A DNA stretch of 64,000 nt from Devosia beringensis (GTDB lineage Bacteria > Pseudomonadota > Alphaproteobacteria > Rhizobiales > Devosiaceae), in assembly GCF_014926585.1 (NCBI RefSeq), contig NZ_CP045422.1, positions 3,316,001 through 3,380,000 on the forward strand. The letters run 5' to 3'. A program made the translations under genes and the position numbers. Each line of letters opens with the position of its first letter. The first letter of the stretch is position 1. The notes beneath the pieces are model-generated. The model was not told the DNA's origin and ran no database searches. It saw nothing but the letters and a program-made list of their open reading frames with translations. Positions 192 to 17,484 of this stretch are shown piece by piece.

Positions 192-1232
192 CTATGTCCA
201 AAGAAGGCGCTCTGACAGGGCACCGCTACCAATATGCCGTTCCAATACTTTGAGGCGTATGAGTTGTGAGTTGCGGAAGTCGGCGTCGGCGAACTGCATC
301 CGGTCCAGGCCGGCGACCAGTTGTTCGATCGACTGGGCTAAAGTGACCCGAGGTTGATGATCGGGCGCCAGTAGTGCGTATTTCCCAAAATCGACTTTGT
401 AGGAACGGCTGTCTGCCGGGGCGGTGGTGTCGATACTAACTTCAGTGCCAGGAACGGCTGCAGCAACGGCTTGCGCGAGATCGCGGACTTGGTAGTTCCG
501 GTCGTCTGATCCTGCATTGACGACCAGATTGCGACCGCCATTGGCCGGCTTGCGGTGGATGGCCCAATCTATCGCGAGCGCCATATCTGCGACGTCGATA
601 AGGGGACGCCATGGTGTGCCGTCGCTGAGCACTGTGATGCGCTTCTGGCTGATGGCACAGGCAACGAAGTCATTAAGCACTAGATCCAGCCGCAGGCGGT
701 CTGACATCCCGCAGGCCGTGGCAAAGCGCAGGCTGGTGATGGTCATGTCGGTGTCGAGGGCTTCCAATTCAATCTCGGTGCCGACTTTGGACTTGGCATA
801 AGCCGTTACCGGGTTGAGGGGATCGTTTTCCTTACGTGCAGGGCCCACCGCAACGCCGTAGACGCTGCAGCTCGACGCGAAGACGAAGTTGCTAACTCCG
901 GTCTTGGCAGCGGCTTGGGCGATCGACATAGTCGCCTTCTGATTGATCGCCTCGGTAACTTCAGCGTAGCGATTGCCCATTGGGTCATTTGAAATGGCGG
1001 CGAGTTCGACCACAGCGTCGTAGCCCTGAAGCATTTCTGGCAACATATCGCGGACATCGCCAAAGAACTGGTTATCGAGATTGCGCTCGGGCACCTGGGA
1101 GACGCCCGTCAGGCAATGGGCGAAAAACGCCGTATCGAAACCGTCGATCACGTAGTCCGGATGGGTTTTGCGCAGATGACGCACCACGATCGGACCGACA
1201 TATCCCATGTTACCTGCAATCAATATCCGCAT
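192..1232 (-). CDS. NAD-dependent epimerase/dehydratase (extended SDR)
   Basis: 346 residues, the usual size for extended short-chain dehydrogenases acting on nucleotide sugars. The N-terminus has the Rossmann glycine motif GNMGYVG (residues 7-13), and the catalytic Tyr/Lys pair is in YAKSK (Y145, K149) after an SSCSVYG strand. It is the last gene of a minus-strand run that includes a cytidylyltransferase and a 3,5-epimerase-like protein, so a CDP- or dTDP-activated sugar is the likely substrate. It does not look like a canonical CDP-glucose 4,6-dehydratase, and the exact reaction (4-epimerase, dehydratase or reductase) cannot be told from motifs. The gene starts 111 bp downstream of the FAD oxidoreductase gene. 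Confidence 0.85.
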   Translation of the reverse strand: MRILIAGNMGYVGPIVVRHLRKTHPDYVIDGFDTAFFAHCLTGVSQVPERNLDNQFFGDVRDMLPEMLQGYDAVVELAAISNDPMGNRYAEVTEAINQKATMSIAQAAAKTGVSNFVFASSCSVYGVAVGPARKENDPLNPVTAYAKSKVGTEIELEALDTDMTITSLRFATACGMSDRLRLDLVLNDFVACAISQKRITVLSDGTPWRPLIDVADMALAIDWAIHRKPANGGRNLVVNAGSDDRNYQVRDLAQAVAAAVPGTEVSIDTTAPADSRSYKVDFGKYALLAPDHQPRVTLAQSIEQLVAGLDRMQFADADFRNSQLIRLKVLERHIGSGALSERLLWT

Positions 1233-1343
1233 CGTCTACTCCGTGCCCCTTGGGCCTCTTGCTTGGTAGATGTTCGCATAATGGCGTGAGTTTCTCCGCA
1301 ACCTTATGAGAATACTGTTAATGACGGTCCTAGACCCGCACCA

Positions 1344-2441
1344 CTAATCTGTGGCCACCTTGTGCAAGACCAAGTCGGCAATGGCGAGGGAGGCGGTCAA
1401 ACCGGGGGACTCTATGCCGAAAAGGCACACGAGGCCGGGGGATCCATGGTCAGCAGGACCAAGAACGGCGAAGTCGGCGGCAGGTTCGCCGGGGCCAGAG
1501 AGCTTGGGACGAATACCGGCGAAAGCAGGTCGCAATTTGGTTGGATCGATGTCGGCCCATATCTGGCGAGCACCCGCAACGAATTTGGCGTGCCTGCTCG
1601 GATCGACGCGGTAGTCTATCTCGCTGATCCACTCCACATCTGGGCCGAAGCGGCTCCGGCCGGCGAGATCGAGGGTAAGATGTGTCCCAAGTCCACCTTG
1701 TTCGGGGATCGGGTAGATCAAGTGGTGGAATGGCAAGACGCTGGAATAACTGAAATAGACGCCGCGGGCGAGGTAGAGGGGCGGGACCGTCGCGGGGTCG
1801 AGCCCTTCTGTGTTGGCCGCAATATTCTGGGCGGCGAGGCCGCCGGAATTGATGACGATGTCTGCCGTGGCGGCTACTTCCGCGCTGCCGTCAACATAGA
1901 TGGCCCATTGGCCATTCTTGCGGACAACCCGGGTAACTTTGGTGTTGCAGACCAGCTGAGCGCCATGGGCTTCGGCATCGGCCAGCAAAGCCATCATAAA
2001 GGCGTGAGAGTCTATGATGCCCGTCGAGGGCGAAAGCAGAGCCTCTTCGCACCGCAGGGCCGGTTCGATTTTACGGACCTCGTTAGCGCTGAGCCGCACC
2101 AGATCGGTGACACCGGCGCCCAAAGCGCTGGCGAGAATGCCATCGAGCTTGGGCGACTGGCTAGCATCGGCCGCAAAAATCAGCTTCTTGCAGTTGCTAT
2201 GGGGCACATCACGGGTGGCGCAATAGGCGTAGAGCATTTCCTTGCCGACGACGCAGAGACGGGCCTTGAGGGAGCCTTGAGGATAGTAGATGCCAGCATG
2301 GATGACCTCGCTGTTGCGGGCGCTGGTCCAGGTGCCGAACGCGGGCTCGCCATCAAGGATGAACGTGTCGTGCCCGGCCATGGCCAGGGCGCGAGCCACG
2401 GCCAATCCGACGACGCCTGCGCCAATGACGATAGCGTTCAC
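1344..2441 (-). CDS. FAD-dependent oxidoreductase, LhgO-like (DAO fold)
   Basis: 365 residues with an N-terminal FAD dinucleotide motif GAGVVG (7-12) and the segment ARNSEVIHAGIYYP, typical of the L-2-hydroxyglutarate oxidase branch of the D-amino-acid-oxidase family. The C-terminus keeps the usual PAFAGIRPKLSGPG and FGIESPGLTASLAIA motifs. It starts 5 bp after the GT2 gene, so it is translated in the same operon. LhgO itself oxidises L-2-hydroxyglutarate; inside a sugar-nucleotide operon a relative could oxidise a hydroxy-acid or a sugar-acid intermediate. Family confidence is high, substrate confidence low. Confidence 0.8.
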   Translation of the reverse strand: MNAIVIGAGVVGLAVARALAMAGHDTFILDGEPAFGTWTSARNSEVIHAGIYYPQGSLKARLCVVGKEMLYAYCATRDVPHSNCKKLIFAADASQSPKLDGILASALGAGVTDLVRLSANEVRKIEPALRCEEALLSPSTGIIDSHAFMMALLADAEAHGAQLVCNTKVTRVVRKNGQWAIYVDGSAEVAATADIVINSGGLAAQNIAANTEGLDPATVPPLYLARGVYFSYSSVLPFHHLIYPIPEQGGLGTHLTLDLAGRSRFGPDVEWISEIDYRVDPSRHAKFVAGARQIWADIDPTKLRPAFAGIRPKLSGPGEPAADFAVLGPADHGSPGLVCLFGIESPGLTASLAIADLVLHKVATD

Positions 2442-2446
2442 TGCCC

Positions 2447-3490
2447 TCAGCCTCCCCGCTTGCGCAGCTTGAGTGTGCGTAGGAGGTCCATTGCGACCGA
2501 ACGGACACTGAACGGCAGGTTCATAGCGAGTTCATAGATGTGGAGCGTTGGGAATGTCGGCACCTCATTCTCATTCAGCACGGCCTTGGCCTCACCAAAG
2601 TCGTGGCGAACCGAACCGCGCTTGGTCTTGAGCAGGGCTAGCAGGCCATTGTCGATGGCGCGCTGGATGGAACGGCGGAAATAGCCATTGAACTGGGTCA
2701 CTCCATCGGCAATGGTGGCTCGCTCCTCCGGGACTTGGGCGCGCTCGCGCAAGGTGGCGAAGACTCTGTCCATGACACGCTTGAGCGCTAATGCTTCGTC
2801 GACAGCGACGCGGAAATCCGGGTCCAGTTTGCCGGAAATAGAGCCGCCATGGACGCGCAGTTTCACCAGCACATTCTCATCGCAGATCACGCTGCCCCCG
2901 AGCGCTGTGATGGCATAGAGCACCCGGTCGGAGTGTCGCATATTGAAGATATCCTTGCCCACCGCCTGCAGGGCGACGGTGCGGAAGGCGACGCCTGTAA
3001 GGTTGGTGCGGAATGTCTTGGCGTCGGGCTTGAACATTTGCACCATGAACTCGGCCGCCGTGCTTCGATAGGGGGTGAGCGCGTCTAGCCGCAAGGGTTG
3101 GCCTTCTTGTGTGATCAGCTGGTGGCGTGAGCGGATGAGGGCCGCATCGGGGTTGGCGGCAATGTGGCGCGCTACGCTTGCGATATAATCTGGCTCAAGC
3201 AGGTCATCGTCGCAGAGATAGACCATCCACTCTGTGCGCACACGAGTCTGGAAGTCGGCGACCTTTTCGAGCATGCCGAGGGCAGGATTGTTGTGGATGT
3301 ACCTGATCTTGGGCGAAGCGAAGGATTCGACAATTTTTCGGACAGAGTCATTCTCGGTGTCATCGTGAACGATCACCTCGAAATCCTGGTTGCTTTGAGC
3401 AAAGCAGGACGCTAGAGCGCCGCCGATATAGGCGGTGCGCCGATAGATCGGCATGCAGATGGTGATCAGCGGCGGGGCATTATCTCGCAT
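2447..3490 (-). CDS. Family 2 glycosyltransferase
   Basis: 347 residues. The N-terminal GT-A domain begins with LITICMPIYRRTAYI and has an HDD motif near residues 42-44 and a CDDD (DXD-type) motif near residues 95-98, which bind nucleotide-sugar and metal. No obvious membrane segments, so a cytoplasmic or peripheral inverting transferase that adds a sugar to a glycan under construction is likely. It lies between the RfbC-like gene (15 bp upstream) and the FAD oxidoreductase (5 bp downstream), consistent with one operon. Donor and acceptor are unknown. Confidence 0.87.
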   Translation of the reverse strand: MRDNAPPLITICMPIYRRTAYIGGALASCFAQSNQDFEVIVHDDTENDSVRKIVESFASPKIRYIHNNPALGMLEKVADFQTRVRTEWMVYLCDDDLLEPDYIASVARHIAANPDAALIRSRHQLITQEGQPLRLDALTPYRSTAAEFMVQMFKPDAKTFRTNLTGVAFRTVALQAVGKDIFNMRHSDRVLYAITALGGSVICDENVLVKLRVHGGSISGKLDPDFRVAVDEALALKRVMDRVFATLRERAQVPEERATIADGVTQFNGYFRRSIQRAIDNGLLALLKTKRGSVRHDFGEAKAVLNENEVPTFPTLHIYELAMNLPFSVRSVAMDLLRTLKLRKRGG

Positions 3491-3505
3491 GTGTCCTCGG
3501 AAAGC

Positions 3506-4051
3506 CTACATGACCGGCTCGGACGCAGCCAACAAGGGCCAGCTCCGATCCTTGTCCGAAATGGTACTGATCGGTGCCGGCCAGTGGAGGGCGAGGGCAG
3601 GGTCGTCATAACGCAACCCAATTTCGGCGCCGGGATGATATGGACTTGAGACGAGGTAGGAGACTTCGGCATCGTCCGACAAAGTCAGAAAGCCGTGTGC
3701 AAATCCGCGCGGCACAAACAATTCGCGAAAGTTGCGGGCGGTCAGTTCGAACCCTTCATGGCGCCGATACGTCGGAGAGTGAGGCCGCATGTCGATGATT
3801 ATGTCGTGGATGGCGCCCTTGACGCATCGTATGAACTTATCCTCACCGTAGGGTTCCAGCTGCAAATGCATGCCGCGCAAAGTACCCTTTTTGGCGGAGA
3901 TGGACATATTTTGCTGGACGAACGTGACGTCAATGCCGTGTGCCAGGAACTCGTCGCGACACATGGTGCGGGCAAACATTCCGCGGTCGTCAGCGCGTGG
4001 TTCGATGTCGATCAGCTTCGCGTCCTGCAGAGTGGTTTCATGAAAAATCAT
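3506..4051 (-). CDS. dTDP-4-dehydrorhamnose 3,5-epimerase family protein
   Basis: 181 residues, the standard RfbC cupin length. The strand KGTLRGMHLQ holds the expected catalytic His (H62), FAHGF (117-121) is the conserved turn, and Y132 in VSYLVSS matches the catalytic Tyr position. The C-terminal RYDDPALALHWP is the usual family ending. The stop codon abuts within one base the start region of the SAF-domain gene upstream in the transcript, showing tight coupling. Partnered with a cytidylyltransferase and not a thymidylyltransferase, it may epimerise a CDP-4-keto-sugar instead of dTDP-4-keto-6-deoxyglucose (inference). Confidence 0.85.
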   Translation of the reverse strand: MIFHETTLQDAKLIDIEPRADDRGMFARTMCRDEFLAHGIDVTFVQQNMSISAKKGTLRGMHLQLEPYGEDKFIRCVKGAIHDIIIDMRPHSPTYRRHEGFELTARNFRELFVPRGFAHGFLTLSDDAEVSYLVSSPYHPGAEIGLRYDDPALALHWPAPISTISDKDRSWPLLAASEPVM

Positions 4052-5368
4052 TTAAGCGAAAAACCGTTCCTGTTCGGCATACAGGGTGTCCACCAGGCGA
4101 CCCTCGGGAAAGATGACATCTGAACGCCGGAGAGGTGCGTCACGCTCAAGTGGGCGGACGACGCGGCAACCCACTGCCAGACCGATCGGCAGCAGATCTT
4201 CGTTGCGAATAACCTCGATATTCTCGCATTCGCCATAGACGTGGTAGCCGCCCAGCTCGACTATTTCGTCTCCCGGATTGAGTGGTATCTTTGCCATTGC
4301 GATGACGCCAACTTCCGGGCGGACTGGCGCTAGCACCGCATCATTGAACAATACGGCGCGGGCGATCGAATAGGGCATCTCGAAGCTGCACAGATGGTAG
4401 GGCGTGTAGAAGCAATAGTAGGGGCCGGTACCCATCTTGTAGAGGTTCAGGCGATGGGTTTGAATGGGATCGTCGGCAGTGCCAATAACAAATATACCGG
4501 GGCCAGGTCGGGCGCCTACGACGTAGTCGACCAACCCCGGACCACCAGCTGCCAGATGCGCGTCAAGATACGGTGCGAAGGCCGCGATCGTGTCTTCGAT
4601 TGGGACCAGTGGGGCGTAGGGATCGCCACCGGAGAAGTCGGGGCCCAGCATGCCGCGCTTGGCGACGCGCATGCCCGTGCCATTGGCCACAATGGCCTGT
4701 TCGAAGGAGACTTTGGTGCCATCCGCGAAGTTGGTAACCATCGCGGCCTTCTGGCCCCACTTTTTTGCATAGCCTTCTTGGGTGGTTGGGTTGCGGTATC
4801 GGTCGTGTAGACCCTTGATATTGCCGCACAGCACAGGTCTTACGCCCATGCCCTCAAGAAAGCGGTACATGTTCATCTCGACGCCGGGCTGGTCACCGTC
4901 CGAGAACGAATAAACCACGCCAGCCTTGTCTGCCTTTTGTTTCAGAATCGGGCCGACTGTGCCATCAGCTTCGGCATTCATGTGCACGATATGTTTGCCC
5001 GCCTCGATAGCGGCCAGCATGACCGCACTAGCATGCTCGATTGAGCCCGTGACTTCGCACAGCACATCGATGCCTTCGGCGCGCGCCATGGCAAAGGCGT
5101 CCTCGGTTACAACCGGAACGCCTTCGGCGATCGCGACCTCGATCTCGGACTGGCTATTGCACACCCGCGGCTCGCGACCAGCACTGCGATAAAGCTCCAA
5201 AGCAGGGTCGGCGCGGCGGCTCGCGATGACGCTGAGCTCCATGCCCGTGGTGAAGCTGAGCAACTGGCGAGCAACACCCGCAGCGATGAACCCTGCGCCG
5301 ACCATACCGATGCGGATCGGGCGGCCCTCGGCTTGGCGCTTCTTTAGGGCTGTATCGACGATTATCAT
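4052..5368 (-). CDS. NAD(P)-binding oxidoreductase with C-terminal SAF domain
   Basis: 438 residues. The N-terminal Rossmann part has RIGMVGAGFIAAGVA and, further on, a homoserine-dehydrogenase-like core (HIVHMNAEADGTVGPIL). The C-terminal part (from about residue 360) has PLNPGDEIVELGGYHVYG and LPIGLAVGCRVVRPLERD, which read as a SAF (antifreeze-like) domain. The family recurs in nucleotide-sugar clusters with RfbF and RfbC-like genes, but its reaction is not established to my knowledge. It abuts the RfbC-like gene and follows the cytidylyltransferase gene by 48 bp. An attractive candidate for an uncharacterised sugar-branching or oxidation step. Confidence 0.7.
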   Translation of the reverse strand: MIIVDTALKKRQAEGRPIRIGMVGAGFIAAGVARQLLSFTTGMELSVIASRRADPALELYRSAGREPRVCNSQSEIEVAIAEGVPVVTEDAFAMARAEGIDVLCEVTGSIEHASAVMLAAIEAGKHIVHMNAEADGTVGPILKQKADKAGVVYSFSDGDQPGVEMNMYRFLEGMGVRPVLCGNIKGLHDRYRNPTTQEGYAKKWGQKAAMVTNFADGTKVSFEQAIVANGTGMRVAKRGMLGPDFSGGDPYAPLVPIEDTIAAFAPYLDAHLAAGGPGLVDYVVGARPGPGIFVIGTADDPIQTHRLNLYKMGTGPYYCFYTPYHLCSFEMPYSIARAVLFNDAVLAPVRPEVGVIAMAKIPLNPGDEIVELGGYHVYGECENIEVIRNEDLLPIGLAVGCRVVRPLERDAPLRRSDVIFPEGRLVDTLYAEQERFFA

Positions 5369-5416
5369 GGCATCACCATTCCTAATTAAAAATTCCGCTG
5401 AATCCAGAACGCTTGA

Positions 5417-6193
5417 TCAGTCTGACCAGACTTTCCACGGAGCGCCCTTGGCCCAAGCGGCCTCGAGCACCTGGCGGTCCCGCAGCGAATCCATGCTCTG
5501 CCAGTAGCCGGCATGGTGGTAACTACGTAGCTTACCGCGATCGATCATGCGGTCCATGGGCTCTGCTTCCCAAGTCGTGGTGTCGCCATCAATCAGGTCA
5601 AACACCTCGGGCTCGCAAACGAAAAAACCGCCGTTGATGAGGCCGCCGTCAGCTGCGCCCTTCTCCCGGAAACCCTCGATGCGTGTCAGACTCAGATCAA
5701 GCTTAAGGGCTCCATAGCGGCCCGGCTGCGTCACAGCGGTCATAGTGCACCAGCCGTCGGACGCCTTGTGGGCGGCAATGAGCTTGGGGATGTCGACGTC
5801 GCTCAATCCATCGCCATAGGTGAGGCAAAAAGTTTCGCCATCAAGGTACTTGCGGGCCCTCTTGATGCGGCCGCCGGTCAGTGAATCGGCGCCAGTGTCA
5901 AGCACGGTAACGCGCCAGTCCTCGGTGCTGGCCTGAAGCCAATCAACGTGCCCGCTGCCCAGGTCGATAGTGAAATCGCTGCGACGGGAGCGCAGATTGA
6001 GAAAATACTCTCGGAGGAAATCGACCTTGTAGCCACCCAGGACGACGAAATCCTTGAGCCCGTAGTGGGCATACATCTTCATGATGTGCCACATGATCGG
6101 CATGCCGCCGATCTCGACCATGGGTTTGGGCCGGACCGCAGTTTCCTCGCTCAAGCGTGTGCCGTATCCTCCAGCAAGCAATGCAACTTTCAT
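5417..6193 (-). CDS. rfbF: Glucose-1-phosphate cytidylyltransferase
   Basis: 258 residues from the ATG at 6193, which has a GGAG ribosome site about 9 nt upstream. The frame stays open for 40 more codons upstream, but those residues are not family-like. The N-terminus MKVALLAGGYGTRLSEET is the nucleotidyltransferase signature (GGxGTRL), with RPKPMVEIGG following, and WHIMKMYAHYGLKDFV is typical of RfbF. It makes CDP-glucose from CTP and glucose-1-phosphate. The expected next enzyme, CDP-glucose 4,6-dehydratase (RfbG), is not recognisable nearby; the SDR at the operon end or a distant gene may supply that step. Confidence 0.9.
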   Translation of the reverse strand: MKVALLAGGYGTRLSEETAVRPKPMVEIGGMPIMWHIMKMYAHYGLKDFVVLGGYKVDFLREYFLNLRSRRSDFTIDLGSGHVDWLQASTEDWRVTVLDTGADSLTGGRIKRARKYLDGETFCLTYGDGLSDVDIPKLIAAHKASDGWCTMTAVTQPGRYGALKLDLSLTRIEGFREKGAADGGLINGGFFVCEPEVFDLIDGDTTTWEAEPMDRMIDRGKLRSYHHAGYWQSMDSLRDRQVLEAAWAKGAPWKVWSD

Positions 6194-6337
6194 CGCCCGA
6201 TCTCCATTAGCAGCTATGCTGCTTTGTGCATTTATACTTGCCCATAGAACTATCACAAAACATCGAAAATCGAACGGTGCAAATGGCGACGATGCAATCG
6301 AAGTTAATTTCAACGGTCCATTCGCATGGCGTGCCTG

Positions 6338-7015
6338 TTATCGGTGCAGGATTGGGTAGAACACGGGGTCCTCAAAGCTCTGAAAGTCGGCATCGGGCCC
6401 CTTGCCACGGAGCAGAAAGCCTGTACCCGCTCGCCGCGCGACGGCGCCGTCACGATCAGCACGGTCGCCTATCATGATCGCTTCGTCCGGTTCGTATCCC
6501 GTGCGTTGAAGTATAGCTTTAAGGCCTTTGGGATCGGGCTTCTGCACGGAGATGTCGGGATCGACGGCAGATACCACAATGTCGGCGGCCAGCCCCAAAG
6601 CTGCGAGCTTTTCTGTGGCACGATGATCAGACAAGATGCCAATCCGAATGTCGTTTTGGCGTAGCGCGTTGAATAGTTCAGCCGCGCCTGGGACACGATA
6701 CCGGGCGATGAAGGGCAGGGGGCGGCTGTTGAACCAATCGTCCAGTAAAGCACGGATGGCTGCTTGGCTGCGATTGCTGGCGGCCGCCACGTCGGCAATG
6801 AGGGCGGACTCAAAATCGACCTGTTCGGCTTCGGCCAAACTCTCGCGGCGGCGGCGCAACCGAGAGATCACCTGTACCAACCCGAGATCGAGCCGCGTCG
6901 CCGCGTGCCAGCCGACCATCGTCGCCATACGCAAACGCATAGGAGCCGGGTCATAGAGGGTTCCGTCTATGTCAAAGACTGCGATACGGCAGTTGTCCCA
7001 GGGAGATGAATTCAC
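6338..7015 (-). CDS. HAD-family hydrolase / phosphatase
   Basis: 225 residues with all HAD motifs: FDIDGTLYD (14-22, nucleophile and acid Asp), a Ser in GILSDHRA, Lys in VQKPDPKGL, and GDRADRDGAVA with the metal-binding Asp residues. The cap is helical (residues 25-95). Its start overlaps the end of the upstream membrane-protein gene by 4 bp (ATGA), so the two are translationally coupled. Given the UbiA-type gene on the other side of the divergent promoter, whose own HAD domain has lost its aspartates, this protein could supply the missing phosphatase (inference). Soluble, cytoplasmic. Confidence 0.87.
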   Translation of the reverse strand: MNSSPWDNCRIAVFDIDGTLYDPAPMRLRMATMVGWHAATRLDLGLVQVISRLRRRRESLAEAEQVDFESALIADVAAASNRSQAAIRALLDDWFNSRPLPFIARYRVPGAAELFNALRQNDIRIGILSDHRATEKLAALGLAADIVVSAVDPDISVQKPDPKGLKAILQRTGYEPDEAIMIGDRADRDGAVARRAGTGFLLRGKGPDADFQSFEDPVFYPILHR

Positions 7016-8313
7016 GGCAGGGGGAGGTCCGGGAGGGTGTCGCGCACGAAGGCCGCAGCCTGTAGGAACGCCTGGTAGTTATTGTATCCAGCAAGGACAA
7101 TCAGCGTTGTGATGACAATTCGCGCAACGTTGCGGAATTTGCCGAGGAAGCCGATCGCAGCAATGGTGAGCACATAAGGCGCTGTGTGCGCCAGGTAGAG
7201 GAAGGCGACGAAGCCGTAGACGGTATGGATAAAAATGAAGGCCGCGAGGATTATGGCGGAGGCAAATATCAACCGCCGTAGAGACACGTTGGCGTCGGTT
7301 GGCTTAAGCAAGGCCGCGACCGAAGAAATCGTGCCAGATACGAGGAGCAAGATCCAAAGCCCCAGTGCCAAAATGCCCGGCCAGTTGGACGGTACGAAAT
7401 CGTCGGCAGTCATGCGCGTGCCATTCAGCCAAGTGTCGATCGTGCCCACGACAACGGGGCTGAACAACAGCACGAAGGGCCGCAGTATCATCGAGGAAAC
7501 CTTGTAGTCTCCGATGAACTCGCCCTCTTTCCAGATATAGAAAACGTTGAAGAACAGTGATGCCTCGCCAAAGATGAAGTCCTGCAAGAGCGCGAGCGCC
7601 ATTGCCGTCACAAGGACGGCCACGGAGATCAGAACTGGGACCTTGATATCTGACCAGATAGTGCGAAAATCCGATAGCCACCGCTTGAGCAGCGCAATCG
7701 GATGATCGAGCAGACCGTATACAATTGCCGTTGCAAGCAGGCCTGCAAACCAATTTGTGATGGTCATCGAAAGAGATGCAAGGCTTGCAAGACCGAGACC
7801 AAGATATCCGAGCCGTGTCTGCGGGCGACCAGAAATCGTGGCGTGAAGGGCGATCAGCAGCGTCGTCCCACCAAAGGTGAACGTCTCCGGCACAGTGTAC
7901 CAGAACAGCATGGTTCCAGACACGAGAAACAACAGACAGATCAAGCTGCGGTCCAGTAAGCCCAGACCGATGCGGCCCAGCAACGTGAATAGCAGCACCA
8001 CCGCAAATCCCGCATTGGATGCCTGAACCACGCGGACGGCTGTCATGGCATCGCCGACGAAGAGTCGGGCCAACGATGTCAACGGCCAAGTGATAAGTGA
8101 GAAAAGCGGATGCTTGTATAGGGTCCAGTGATGGTATTCACGGATCGTCATGTTCATAGCGACGATCCGCGTGTCCGAATCGAACCAAACGTCCTGGGAT
8201 TGATCGGCCATTGAAAACAGACTTTGGTCGATCATGCCCGACAACACGAACGAAACCGCAACGGCTGCCGCAAAAAGCGCGGCCAAAACTATAGGGGAGA
8301 GACGCGTTGTCAA
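7012..8313 (-). CDS. Multi-pass membrane protein, possible GT-C glycosyltransferase
   Basis: 433 residues with roughly ten hydrophobic segments. The first is residues 7-29, followed by an external loop with an acidic DSD motif (45-47) and HHWTLYKHPLFSLITWPL. This architecture (one helix, then an aspartate-bearing periplasmic loop, then many helices) resembles GT-C enzymes that use polyprenyl-phosphate sugars, but no family signature is decisive. It is the first gene of the minus-strand operon, 156 bp from the divergent UbiA-type gene, and overlaps the HAD gene by 4 bp. Function is inferred from architecture and context only. Confidence 0.6.
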   Translation of the reverse strand: MTTRLSPIVLAALFAAAVAVSFVLSGMIDQSLFSMADQSQDVWFDSDTRIVAMNMTIREYHHWTLYKHPLFSLITWPLTSLARLFVGDAMTAVRVVQASNAGFAVVLLFTLLGRIGLGLLDRSLICLLFLVSGTMLFWYTVPETFTFGGTTLLIALHATISGRPQTRLGYLGLGLASLASLSMTITNWFAGLLATAIVYGLLDHPIALLKRWLSDFRTIWSDIKVPVLISVAVLVTAMALALLQDFIFGEASLFFNVFYIWKEGEFIGDYKVSSMILRPFVLLFSPVVVGTIDTWLNGTRMTADDFVPSNWPGILALGLWILLLVSGTISSVAALLKPTDANVSLRRLIFASAIILAAFIFIHTVYGFVAFLYLAHTAPYVLTIAAIGFLGKFRNVARIVITTLIVLAGYNNYQAFLQAAAFVRDTLPDLPLP

Positions 8314-10802: not shown

Positions 10803-11336
10803 TTGTCGAATTCAAGCCAAGACGAGTACGTGCGTTTCTTGAGGTTTGATTGAACGGCAGCGCTATAGTGCCCCGGTTCCGCGGGCGTCCAGGCCGCTTG
10901 AGCGTGCTTGCCGCCTGCATCATCTAGAGCATGAAGTCTGGACTTGGGACGACCGGCTGACGCCAATATGCGCGACGTCTGCGGCGCCATTCCATTACCA
11001 TCGGGTGATGGCGCCCCCTCGAAATCGCAAGGGCAAGACACGACAGCTTTGGACACCATCTGAACTCGGCCGATACCTGACATTGCATCAGCGGCCCCGA
11101 CGTCCTATCCCTTGAGTGGATAACACTCGACGAGTCCAATTTAACGCGCTGATGCCAAGTCCCGAAGCGATATGACGACGACTGAAACTTCAAGGAGTTG
11201 CAGGCACGAAAAGCCCGTTGGACAGACCGATCCGGCGGTCATCGACCCTCAATTGGTTATCGTGCTTAGCGAGTACGGATATTCCCGGAGGACGTGCGCA
11301 ATTCACCGCTGGACAATATAGTAGCCGTGTTCGATG
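10803..11336. other. Non-coding stretch upstream of octanucleotide array
   Basis: No frame with convincing ribosome site, codon pattern or family motif was found on either strand. The only local structure noticed is an inverted repeat GGCGCCAT ... ATGGCGCC between about 10982 and 11016. The stretch ends in a TAG stop (11322-11324) and an ATG (11334) that sits directly against the tandem array. Confidence 0.5.
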
Positions 11337-11464
11337 CTGGCCGTCTGGCCGTCTGGCCGTCTGGCCGTCTGGCCGTCTGGCCGTCTGGCCGTCTGGCCGT
11401 CTGGCCGTCTGACCGTCTGGCCGTCTGGCCGTCTGGCCGTCTGGTCGTCTGGCCGTCTGGTCGC
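11337..11464 (+). repeat. Octanucleotide tandem array, 16 units of CTGGCCGT
   Basis: Sixteen consecutive 8-bp units. Thirteen match CTGGCCGT exactly; units starting at 11409 (G to A), 11441 (C to T) and 11457 (two changes) vary. The unit has no stop codon in any frame on either strand, so open frames run through it. An ATG at 11334 abuts the array, and with the present copy number its frame continues without a stop into the glycosyltransferase gene downstream. As 8 is not a multiple of 3, gain or loss of one unit would break that continuity. Confidence 0.95.
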
Positions 11465-11576
11465 TAAGCATGAGGCCTTTGACGGCTGTGTAACAGGCCC
11501 GTTCCAAATTCTGTGCCGTCGGTGCCTGCAGTATTGTCATGTTGTGGAATGCGTACATGGGTCGCGTAGGTTTCGT

Positions 11577-12746
11577 ATGGGTCGCGTAGGTGAAGCGGGT
11601 CCGGTAACAACCGACCGACGCAAAACTGATGTTTTGATGTTCGGATTGCGGACCGTTGGCAGCGGGCAGGGTGGTGTTGAAAACCATGTTGACAACCTCG
11701 TACGTGAGCTCGATGAGCTTGGTCTTTCTGTCCTGGTAGTCATCCGATCAAGTTATGGCAGTGAGCCCTGGGTTCGCGGGCGGGCTACCAGATTTGTACC
11801 CATTTGGTCCCCCCGTGGCGAGTATCTGGAGGCAGTGGTTCATAGCCTGCTGGCCAGTCTCTATGCCATCATCGTGCGTCCGAGGATTGTGCATGTGCAT
11901 GCCATCGGGCCCAGCTTGATGGTGCCGCTGCTGAGACTTGCGGGCCTCAAGGTAGTCACGACGCACCATGGTGAGGATTACAATCGTGAAAAATGGGGTC
12001 TGGTGGCCTCTGCCGCACTTCGGCTCGGCGAATATTGCCAAGCTCGTTTCGCCAATGCGCGCCTTTGCGTATCCCGTAGCCTGGCGAAACGACTACAAAG
12101 CAAGTTTGATAGCCCGTTTGCCTATGTACCAAATGGCGTTCGGCCGATGCAGCCGGTTCCCGATACAGATCAATTGGCACGATTTGGCCTCCTGCCCGGC
12201 GAGTATGTGCTGACGGTAAGTCGGCTCGTGCCGGAGAAGCGGCACCTTGACCTGATCGCCGCGTTTGACGGTCTGCAGCGACCGGACCTGCGACTGGCAA
12301 TTGTCGGCGGTGCTGACTACGAAACCCCATATTCCAGATCCGTTCAGGAACATGCAAGCGCAGTGCCAAATGTCATCATGACAGGGCTATTAACCGGGAC
12401 GGCGCTGCAGCAGATGTTCAGTCATGCCGGGGTATTTGCCTTGCCGTCGACGCATGAGGGCCTTCCCATTGCCTTGCTTGAGGCCATGGCCTTCCATCGC
12501 AACGTCGTTGCCAGCGACATAGCGCCGAACCTGGATATTGGTCTGCCGATCGAATGCTATCACAAAGTGGGGGATATCGAGGATCTTCGTTGCAAGCTTG
12601 AAGCAGCGCTGTTGAACGACAGCTATGCCCATGTAGGCAGGGACTGGTCTTCGTTGCTGGCAGACTTTGATTGGACCGCCATCGCCCGCAAAACCATGGA
12701 GTTCTACGTCAACGTCAGCCCGGCGATTAAATCCGTAATTCAGTAG
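11577..12746 (+). CDS. Family 4 glycosyltransferase
   Basis: 389 residues from the ATG at 11577. The GT-B N-terminal domain opens with DVLMFGLRTVGSGQGGVENH, and the C-terminal domain has LTVSRLVPEKRHLDLIAAF, the nucleotide-binding loops, and the retaining-enzyme EX7E-type motif ALPSTHEGLPIALLEAMA. The frame is open back to 11334 through the tandem array, but the extra 81 residues are repeat-derived and low complexity. A 15-bp direct duplication (ATGGGTCGCGTAGGT at 11557 and 11577) covers the proposed start. An ATG at 11637 is the other possible start. Likely role: sugar transfer during surface-polysaccharide assembly. Confidence 0.85.
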   Translation: MGRVGEAGPVTTDRRKTDVLMFGLRTVGSGQGGVENHVDNLVRELDELGLSVLVVIRSSYGSEPWVRGRATRFVPIWSPRGEYLEAVVHSLLASLYAIIVRPRIVHVHAIGPSLMVPLLRLAGLKVVTTHHGEDYNREKWGLVASAALRLGEYCQARFANARLCVSRSLAKRLQSKFDSPFAYVPNGVRPMQPVPDTDQLARFGLLPGEYVLTVSRLVPEKRHLDLIAAFDGLQRPDLRLAIVGGADYETPYSRSVQEHASAVPNVIMTGLLTGTALQQMFSHAGVFALPSTHEGLPIALLEAMAFHRNVVASDIAPNLDIGLPIECYHKVGDIEDLRCKLEAALLNDSYAHVGRDWSSLLADFDWTAIARKTMEFYVNVSPAIKSVIQ

Positions 12747-16683: not shown

Positions 16684-17484
16684 TCAGGGGCGGCCGTATG
16701 ACCCCGAAGCGTTCATCAGCGATATCGGGGGTTTGTTCCCGATAGCGCTATGTGGGCGGACCTCGTTGTAGTCTCTACGCCATTCCTCCATCTTCATCCG
16801 GGCGTCGTCAAGGCTGAGGAACCAGTGGGCGTTCAGGCACTCAGCTCGGAATTTGCCGTTGAAGGACTCGATAAAGGCATTGTCAGTGGGCTTGCCCGGC
16901 CGGCTGAAGTCGAGCACGACGCCCTTTTGGTAGGCCCATAAGTCGAGGTCACGCGAGATGAACTCGGAGCCCTGATCGACCCGTATCGATTGGGGATAGC
17001 CAACCTCGCGGCAGATCCTTTCCAAAGCCAGAACTACGTCCTCACCGCGATAGCTGAACCGAGGATCAGTCGCCGGCGAGAACCGCGAGAAGGTATCCAC
17101 GATTGTCAGGATGCGCAGCTTTCGCCCCGTCGCCAGCTGGTCGTGAACGAAGTCCATGGCCCAGATCTGGTTGGTCATTGTTGCTATGGTCCGGTCGTCG
17201 CGGAGCTTGGCTTTAACCCGTCGCTTGGGCACCTTGTTCCGCAACTGCAGACCCATCTCCTTGTACAGACGATAGATTCTTTTGGGGTTCACGTCCCAGC
17301 CCTCCCGCCGCAGCAGCACGTGCACCCGCCGATACCCATAGCGGACGCGGGTCTCGCAGATCTGCTTAATGCGCAGCTTCAGATCGGCCTGCTCGCTGCG
17401 CTTGCCCTTGTAATGGTAAAGCGACCTGTCAACGCTGAGCGCACTACAAGCCTTGCGGATCGAGACATTCCAGGCCTGCCGCAC
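16684..17484 (-). CDS. IS3-family transposase OrfB (DDE integrase domain)
   Basis: 266 residues from a GTG at 17484, but the natural product is most likely the OrfAB fusion made by a -1 frameshift, because the frame is open back to the end of orfA. It has a helix-turn-helix-like HTH_21 region (CSALSVDRSLYHYKGKRS), RVRYGYRRVHVLLRREGW, and the rve DDE core: WAMDFVHDQ (first Asp), RVDQGSEFISRD (second Asp) and FIESFNGKFRAECLN (Glu). All catalytic residues are present, so the enzyme looks active. It ends 55 bp inside the element's right end. Confidence 0.9.
   Translation of the reverse strand: MRQAWNVSIRKACSALSVDRSLYHYKGKRSEQADLKLRIKQICETRVRYGYRRVHVLLRREGWDVNPKRIYRLYKEMGLQLRNKVPKRRVKAKLRDDRTIATMTNQIWAMDFVHDQLATGRKLRILTIVDTFSRFSPATDPRFSYRGEDVVLALERICREVGYPQSIRVDQGSEFISRDLDLWAYQKGVVLDFSRPGKPTDNAFIESFNGKFRAECLNAHWFLSLDDARMKMEEWRRDYNEVRPHSAIGNKPPISLMNASGSYGRP

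Follow-up and report, generated by a model that had tools for sequence, protein, structure and literature searches.

Results

An octanucleotide array lies before a GT4 glycosyltransferase gene

The locus lies in a 64,000-nucleotide stretch of the Devosia beringensis genome (the window, meaning the whole stretch of DNA that was analysed), taken from an assembly that consists of a single 4.05 Mb contig and is 99.8% complete. Genes for a UbiA prenyltransferase, a small ArnF-like (EamA-like) transporter, a C93 (LapG-related) peptidase, a GT4 family glycosyltransferase and a GMC oxidoreductase follow one another in this order, and the features around the start of the GT4 gene are collected in Table 1. 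In a nucleotide match from D. faecipullorum the genes ArnF-like, C93, GT4 and GMC occupy corresponding positions, with an ORF of the size of the UbiA gene further upstream. On the minus strand, positions 192-8313 encode a sugar epimerase, a dTDP-sugar epimerase, a glucose-1-phosphate cytidylyltransferase (above the NCBIfam cut-off), a GT2 transferase and a DRL-type oxidoreductase, which probably make up a CDP-sugar surface-glycan cluster. Since these sugar-nucleotide and transferase genes lie nearby, it is reasonable to suppose that the GT4 enzyme acts in a surface or envelope glycan. An IS3 family transposase gene is located downstream of the cluster (16684-17484, minus strand), and a search for a plasmid origin of the locus gave no match.

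The GT4 gene itself is intact and lies beside the surface-sugar gene cluster, which agrees with the initial description of the array, made from the sequence only, as one that precedes a GT4 glycosyltransferase gene and resembles the contingency loci of surface-glycan genes. Its Glyco_transf_4 and Glycos_transf_1 domains score 71.2 and 75.1 bits (cut-offs 28.5 and 26.4), and the E-x7-E motif of the GT4 family is present in the translation as EGLPIALLE. The gene is 63% identical to its D. faecipullorum orthologue, and the differences between the two genes are distributed over the codon positions as 113/80/232; the GT4 gene is under constraint.

The array was detected by Tandem Repeats Finder (period 8, 15.5 copies, 11337-11460, score 234), and this result and a reading by hand both bear out the sixteen octamer units that had been reported right after the ATG at 11334. 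Units 1-9, 11-13 and 15 are perfect, and the remaining ones read CTGACCGT (unit 10), CTGGTCGT (unit 14) and CTGGTCGC (unit 16); because of where these degenerate units fall, the 3' end of the array looks older than the 5' end. A short non-triplet unit in many near-perfect copies, as in frame-switch contingency loci, is thus what the array offers, and it is probably prone to slippage.

Table 1. Features around the start of the GT4 gene (window coordinates).
Feature	Position	Strand	Remarks
Intergenic region, C93 peptidase gene to GT4	10803..11576	+	array apart, no notable match in genus
Possible N-terminal extension, 81 codons (ATG 11334, array, 112 nt)	11334..11576	+	open frame
Octanucleotide array, 16 units of CTGGCCGT	11337..11464	+	13 perfect; units 10, 14, 16 degenerate
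Longest perfect run, 9 units (units 1-9)	11337..11408	+	part expected to be most prone to slippage
Tandem duplication around start codon, ATGGGTCGCGTAGGT	11557..11591	+	copies at 11557-11571 and 11577-11591, step 20 bp
GT4 family glycosyltransferase, 389 aa	11577..12746	+	most likely start ATG 11577; Pfam Glyco_transf_4 and Glycos_transf_1

The gene probably starts beyond the array

In the D. faecipullorum orthologue the initiating ATG is placed 31 codons before a conserved GGVE motif, which is the exact position of ATG 11577 in the window, and it is preceded by GGAGG with a Shine-Dalgarno (SD) energy of -10.0. At the other homologous loci with the motif correctly placed, an ATG stands no more than 31 codons ahead of it, mostly 18, and extra N-terminal residues are common to none; this comparison omits L010, which holds the gene of L017 and in which the motif is misplaced, as well as L011, L014 and L015, in which the motif was not found. 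For the 40 residues encoded between the end of the array and 11577, a search of 75 genomes of the genus gave no match. Because the orthologue start with its strong SD sequence corresponds to 11577 and the extension is without a homologue, the array is best regarded as upstream or leader DNA: on this comparison of sequences it most likely lies outside the GT4 coding sequence, translation would with similar probability begin at ATG 11577 irrespective of unit number, and the extension is probably untranslated or dispensable. The proposal that the array forms part of the coding sequence is therefore not upheld. With the true start beyond the repeats, the gain or loss of units would at most tune the gene and would not switch its reading frame.

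The ribosome-site scores of the in-frame starts are -4.1 at 11577 (the best), -1.9 at 11334 and -0.2 at 11637, so that ATG 11577, already noted as usable, has both the orthologue and the best score on its side. The site at 11577 is weak, a score of -4.1 or better being found at 35% of random positions. No sequence resembling a ribosome site was found before 11334, in agreement with what had been remarked of this ATG at the outset; the hybridisation energy there is -1.9, and the best starts of 211 long ORFs have a median of -5.8. ATG 11637, once put forward as an alternative start, is unlikely to serve as one because it sits inside the conserved first strand (VLMFGLR). The start codon at 11577 falls within a 20-bp tandem duplication; the ATG of its first copy is not in the frame of the gene and begins an ORF of 10 codons that runs across the true start. 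It is possible that the duplication pushed an earlier ribosome site out of place.

A repeat that may tune expression from the leader

The array ends 112 nt upstream of ATG 11577, within the range of about 50-250 nt expected of upstream repeats of the hmw1A type. Its intergenic surroundings are wholly diverged, and the intergenic region has no Rfam match. No convincing sigma-70 promoter was found there, the scans performing no better than chance: the best match (10838-10868, CTTGAG-19-CTATAG, 10/12) is distant from the array, and the best match in shuffled sequences averages 8.8. In Sinorhizobium, conservation of the sigma-70 -10 region is poor (PMC3616915). A TATAGT at 11317-11322 lies just before ATG 11334 and has no -35 element at the right distance, and the leader RNA is no more structured than its shuffles (z -0.61). 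The array is also flanked by the arms of a 13-nt inverted repeat (11260-11272 and 11461-11473, 12/13 matching), the second of which overlaps the last unit; by our own estimate chance alone would produce about 0.25 pairs of this kind in 921 bp, which puts this one at about chance level.

We favour, at a probability of roughly 0.4, a reading in which the array is a slip-prone simple-sequence repeat upstream of the GT4 gene or in its 5' leader that tunes the amount of enzyme. Gain or loss of an 8-bp unit would lengthen or shorten the leader, or else shift upstream promoter elements in distance and helical phase, each step turning them through about three quarters of a turn of the helix, and the amount of glycosyltransferase would shift in small steps with the unit number, as it does before H. 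influenzae hmw1A. We infer both that the unit number changes and that the change matters. Expression tuning through leader or promoter length is plausible. The sequence-only reading had held altered promoter spacing in reserve; a change of promoter or leader spacing fits the anatomy better than a frame switch does, although the promoter scans remain at chance level. The wider claim of a contingency locus keeps its simple-sequence repeat before a glycan gene and most likely loses its frame switch.

The array stands alone in the sampled genome and its lineage

Tandem repeats were surveyed in 864 kb of the D. beringensis genome, made up of 40 stretches of 20 kb together with the window. The octamer array has the highest score in this sample and is its sole array with a unit of at most 12 bp that is not divisible by 3 and is present in at least 4 copies; such a repeat is far beyond chance. 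It occurs once in the 4.05 Mb genome, in which a search for further copies with up to 3 mismatches returned two scattered single matches, the level of the reversed control. The array is absent from all 200 relatives searched and from 384 other genomes spread over the class, about 580 genomes in all with the relatives, and it is missing from the gap before the D. faecipullorum orthologue. One three-unit match came from a viral contig, within an unrelated octamer-rich stretch; the viral contig IMGVR_UViG_3300012682_000757 (L061:3240-3360) carries several short octamer arrays, CGAGACGG and then TGGCCGTC x3, and is probably unrelated to the locus described here. As the array is found in none of the relatives, there is no sign of a conserved function, and since it is a single isolated array in the sampled genome, nothing points to a repertoire of contingency loci.

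For the same reason, namely that the array is alone in both the sampled genome and the lineage, it is almost as likely to be a neutral microsatellite, an octamer expanded by slippage in noncoding DNA and without effect on the glycosyltransferase. Its absence from the orthologous gap and from every other genome searched, the complete divergence of the intergenic surroundings, and scans of the intergenic region and leader that found neither promoter nor structure signals are all consistent with such an origin. Against it stand the great rarity of long perfect non-triplet arrays in this genome and the placement of this one just before a gene of the surface-glycan type.

The open frame through the array

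From ATG 11334 the frame is open through the array and into the GT4 gene as far as the stop at 12744-12746 (470 aa), and the observation that at this copy number it enters the gene without a stop thus holds. By arithmetic, 11334 shares the frame of the gene only when the array has 3k+1 units (10, 13, 16, 19, 22 and so on); at other numbers the frame stops inside the array or at 11467, since of the two alternative frames one acquires a stop through the G-to-A change of unit 10 and the other is closed by the TAA at 11465-11467. Were translation to start at 11334, a full-length, N-terminally extended enzyme would be made at those unit numbers only, and a switch of this kind would be open at the present 16 units and closed at the neighbouring numbers. 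An AUG a few bases past the TATAGT could serve a near-leaderless transcript, and leaderless mRNAs exist in Sinorhizobium, an alphaproteobacterium (PMC3616915). Codon scoring of the 37 codons that follow the array (11466-11576) is compatible with coding, slightly better in the frame of the gene (-0.18 per codon in frame 0) than in the other frames (-0.37 and -1.55), for what is a short stretch.

We nevertheless consider a frame switch unlikely, with the orthologue start and its ribosome site coinciding with 11577, a post-array peptide that is unique, no ribosome site before 11334 and a TATAGT that lacks a properly spaced -35 element. The openness of the frame is itself within chance expectation: when the 100 bases before the array and the 112 bases separating it from ATG 11577 were shuffled with their dinucleotides kept, 9.3% of the trials gave an ATG-led frame that stayed open across the array and into the gene, and 15.8% did so when ATG, GTG and TTG starts were allowed. 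Across the perfect array openness is uninformative, since a run of CTGGCCGT units is free of stops in all frames. Moreover, ATG 11577 would still permit initiation in every phase, the 'off' phases included, so the outcome would be a change in the form of the protein more than a clean switch. A minus-strand ORF that spans the array (11190-11687) was also considered and belongs to no Pfam family.

An arrangement in which the repeat number alternates between the extended enzyme (from 11334, on a near-leaderless transcript) and the ordinary one (from 11577), changing both form and amount of the protein and making this a stand-alone phase-variable surface-glycan gene in a genus of alphaproteobacteria from which phase variation is not known, appears more doubtful still. 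Least probable of all is a real array whose actual unit number is another one or is not uniform in the culture. Short-unit arrays of more than 100 bp are difficult for short reads; against this reading, the genome was assembled as one nearly complete contig and the degenerate units anchor the 3' part of the array.

Discussion

A repeat that tunes the GT4 gene from upstream has its closest parallel in H. influenzae, where hmw1A and hmw2A carry 7-, 8- and 9-bp repeats about 70 to 210 nt upstream (PMC2651432). The units there are of 7 bp, with an 8-bp unit, GCATCATC, in 12-15 copies and a 9-bp unit also described (PMC2651432, PMC8262952); at hmw1A the repeats lie in the 5' UTR of the transcript from promoter P2, and more units mean lower expression from it (PMC8262952). 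The Devosia array resembles these systems in the size of the unit (7-9 bp), the number of copies (11-38) and the distance (roughly 70-210 nt upstream) and, if 11577 is the start, in lying outside the coding sequence. In contrast, hmw1A and hmw2A are adhesin genes of a host-adapted pathogen with many such loci, in which copy variation and its effect have been measured, whereas the Devosia array precedes a glycosyltransferase gene, is isolated in the sampled genome and is known here from sequence alone.

In the LPS genes of H. influenzae, tetranucleotide repeats are intragenic and act by a mechanism of the frame-switch type. These repeats (PMC2651432) share with the Devosia array a non-triplet unit, a position at the 5' end of a possible frame and a gene of the surface-glycan type; they differ in that the orthologue comparison places the Devosia array upstream of the coding sequence. 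A further parallel is the LPS gene tlpB-hp0102 of Helicobacter pylori, for which PMC8295292 describes a variable G-repeat in the mRNA leader that is read by the sRNA RepG and controls the gene through it. The two would be alike in having a repeat in the mRNA leader before a surface-glycan gene, and the H. pylori system differs in its mononucleotide repeat and trans-acting sRNA.

Our literature search returned no report of phase variation in Devosia, the two terms occurring together only in a general review. Should the array have no such role, it would be an isolated microsatellite, mainly useful as a strain-typing marker. If instead the unit number varies and changes the output of the glycosyltransferase, Devosia would have a phase-variable surface-glycan locus, and the array would serve as a simple model for expression tuned by repeats in bacteria other than host-adapted pathogens.
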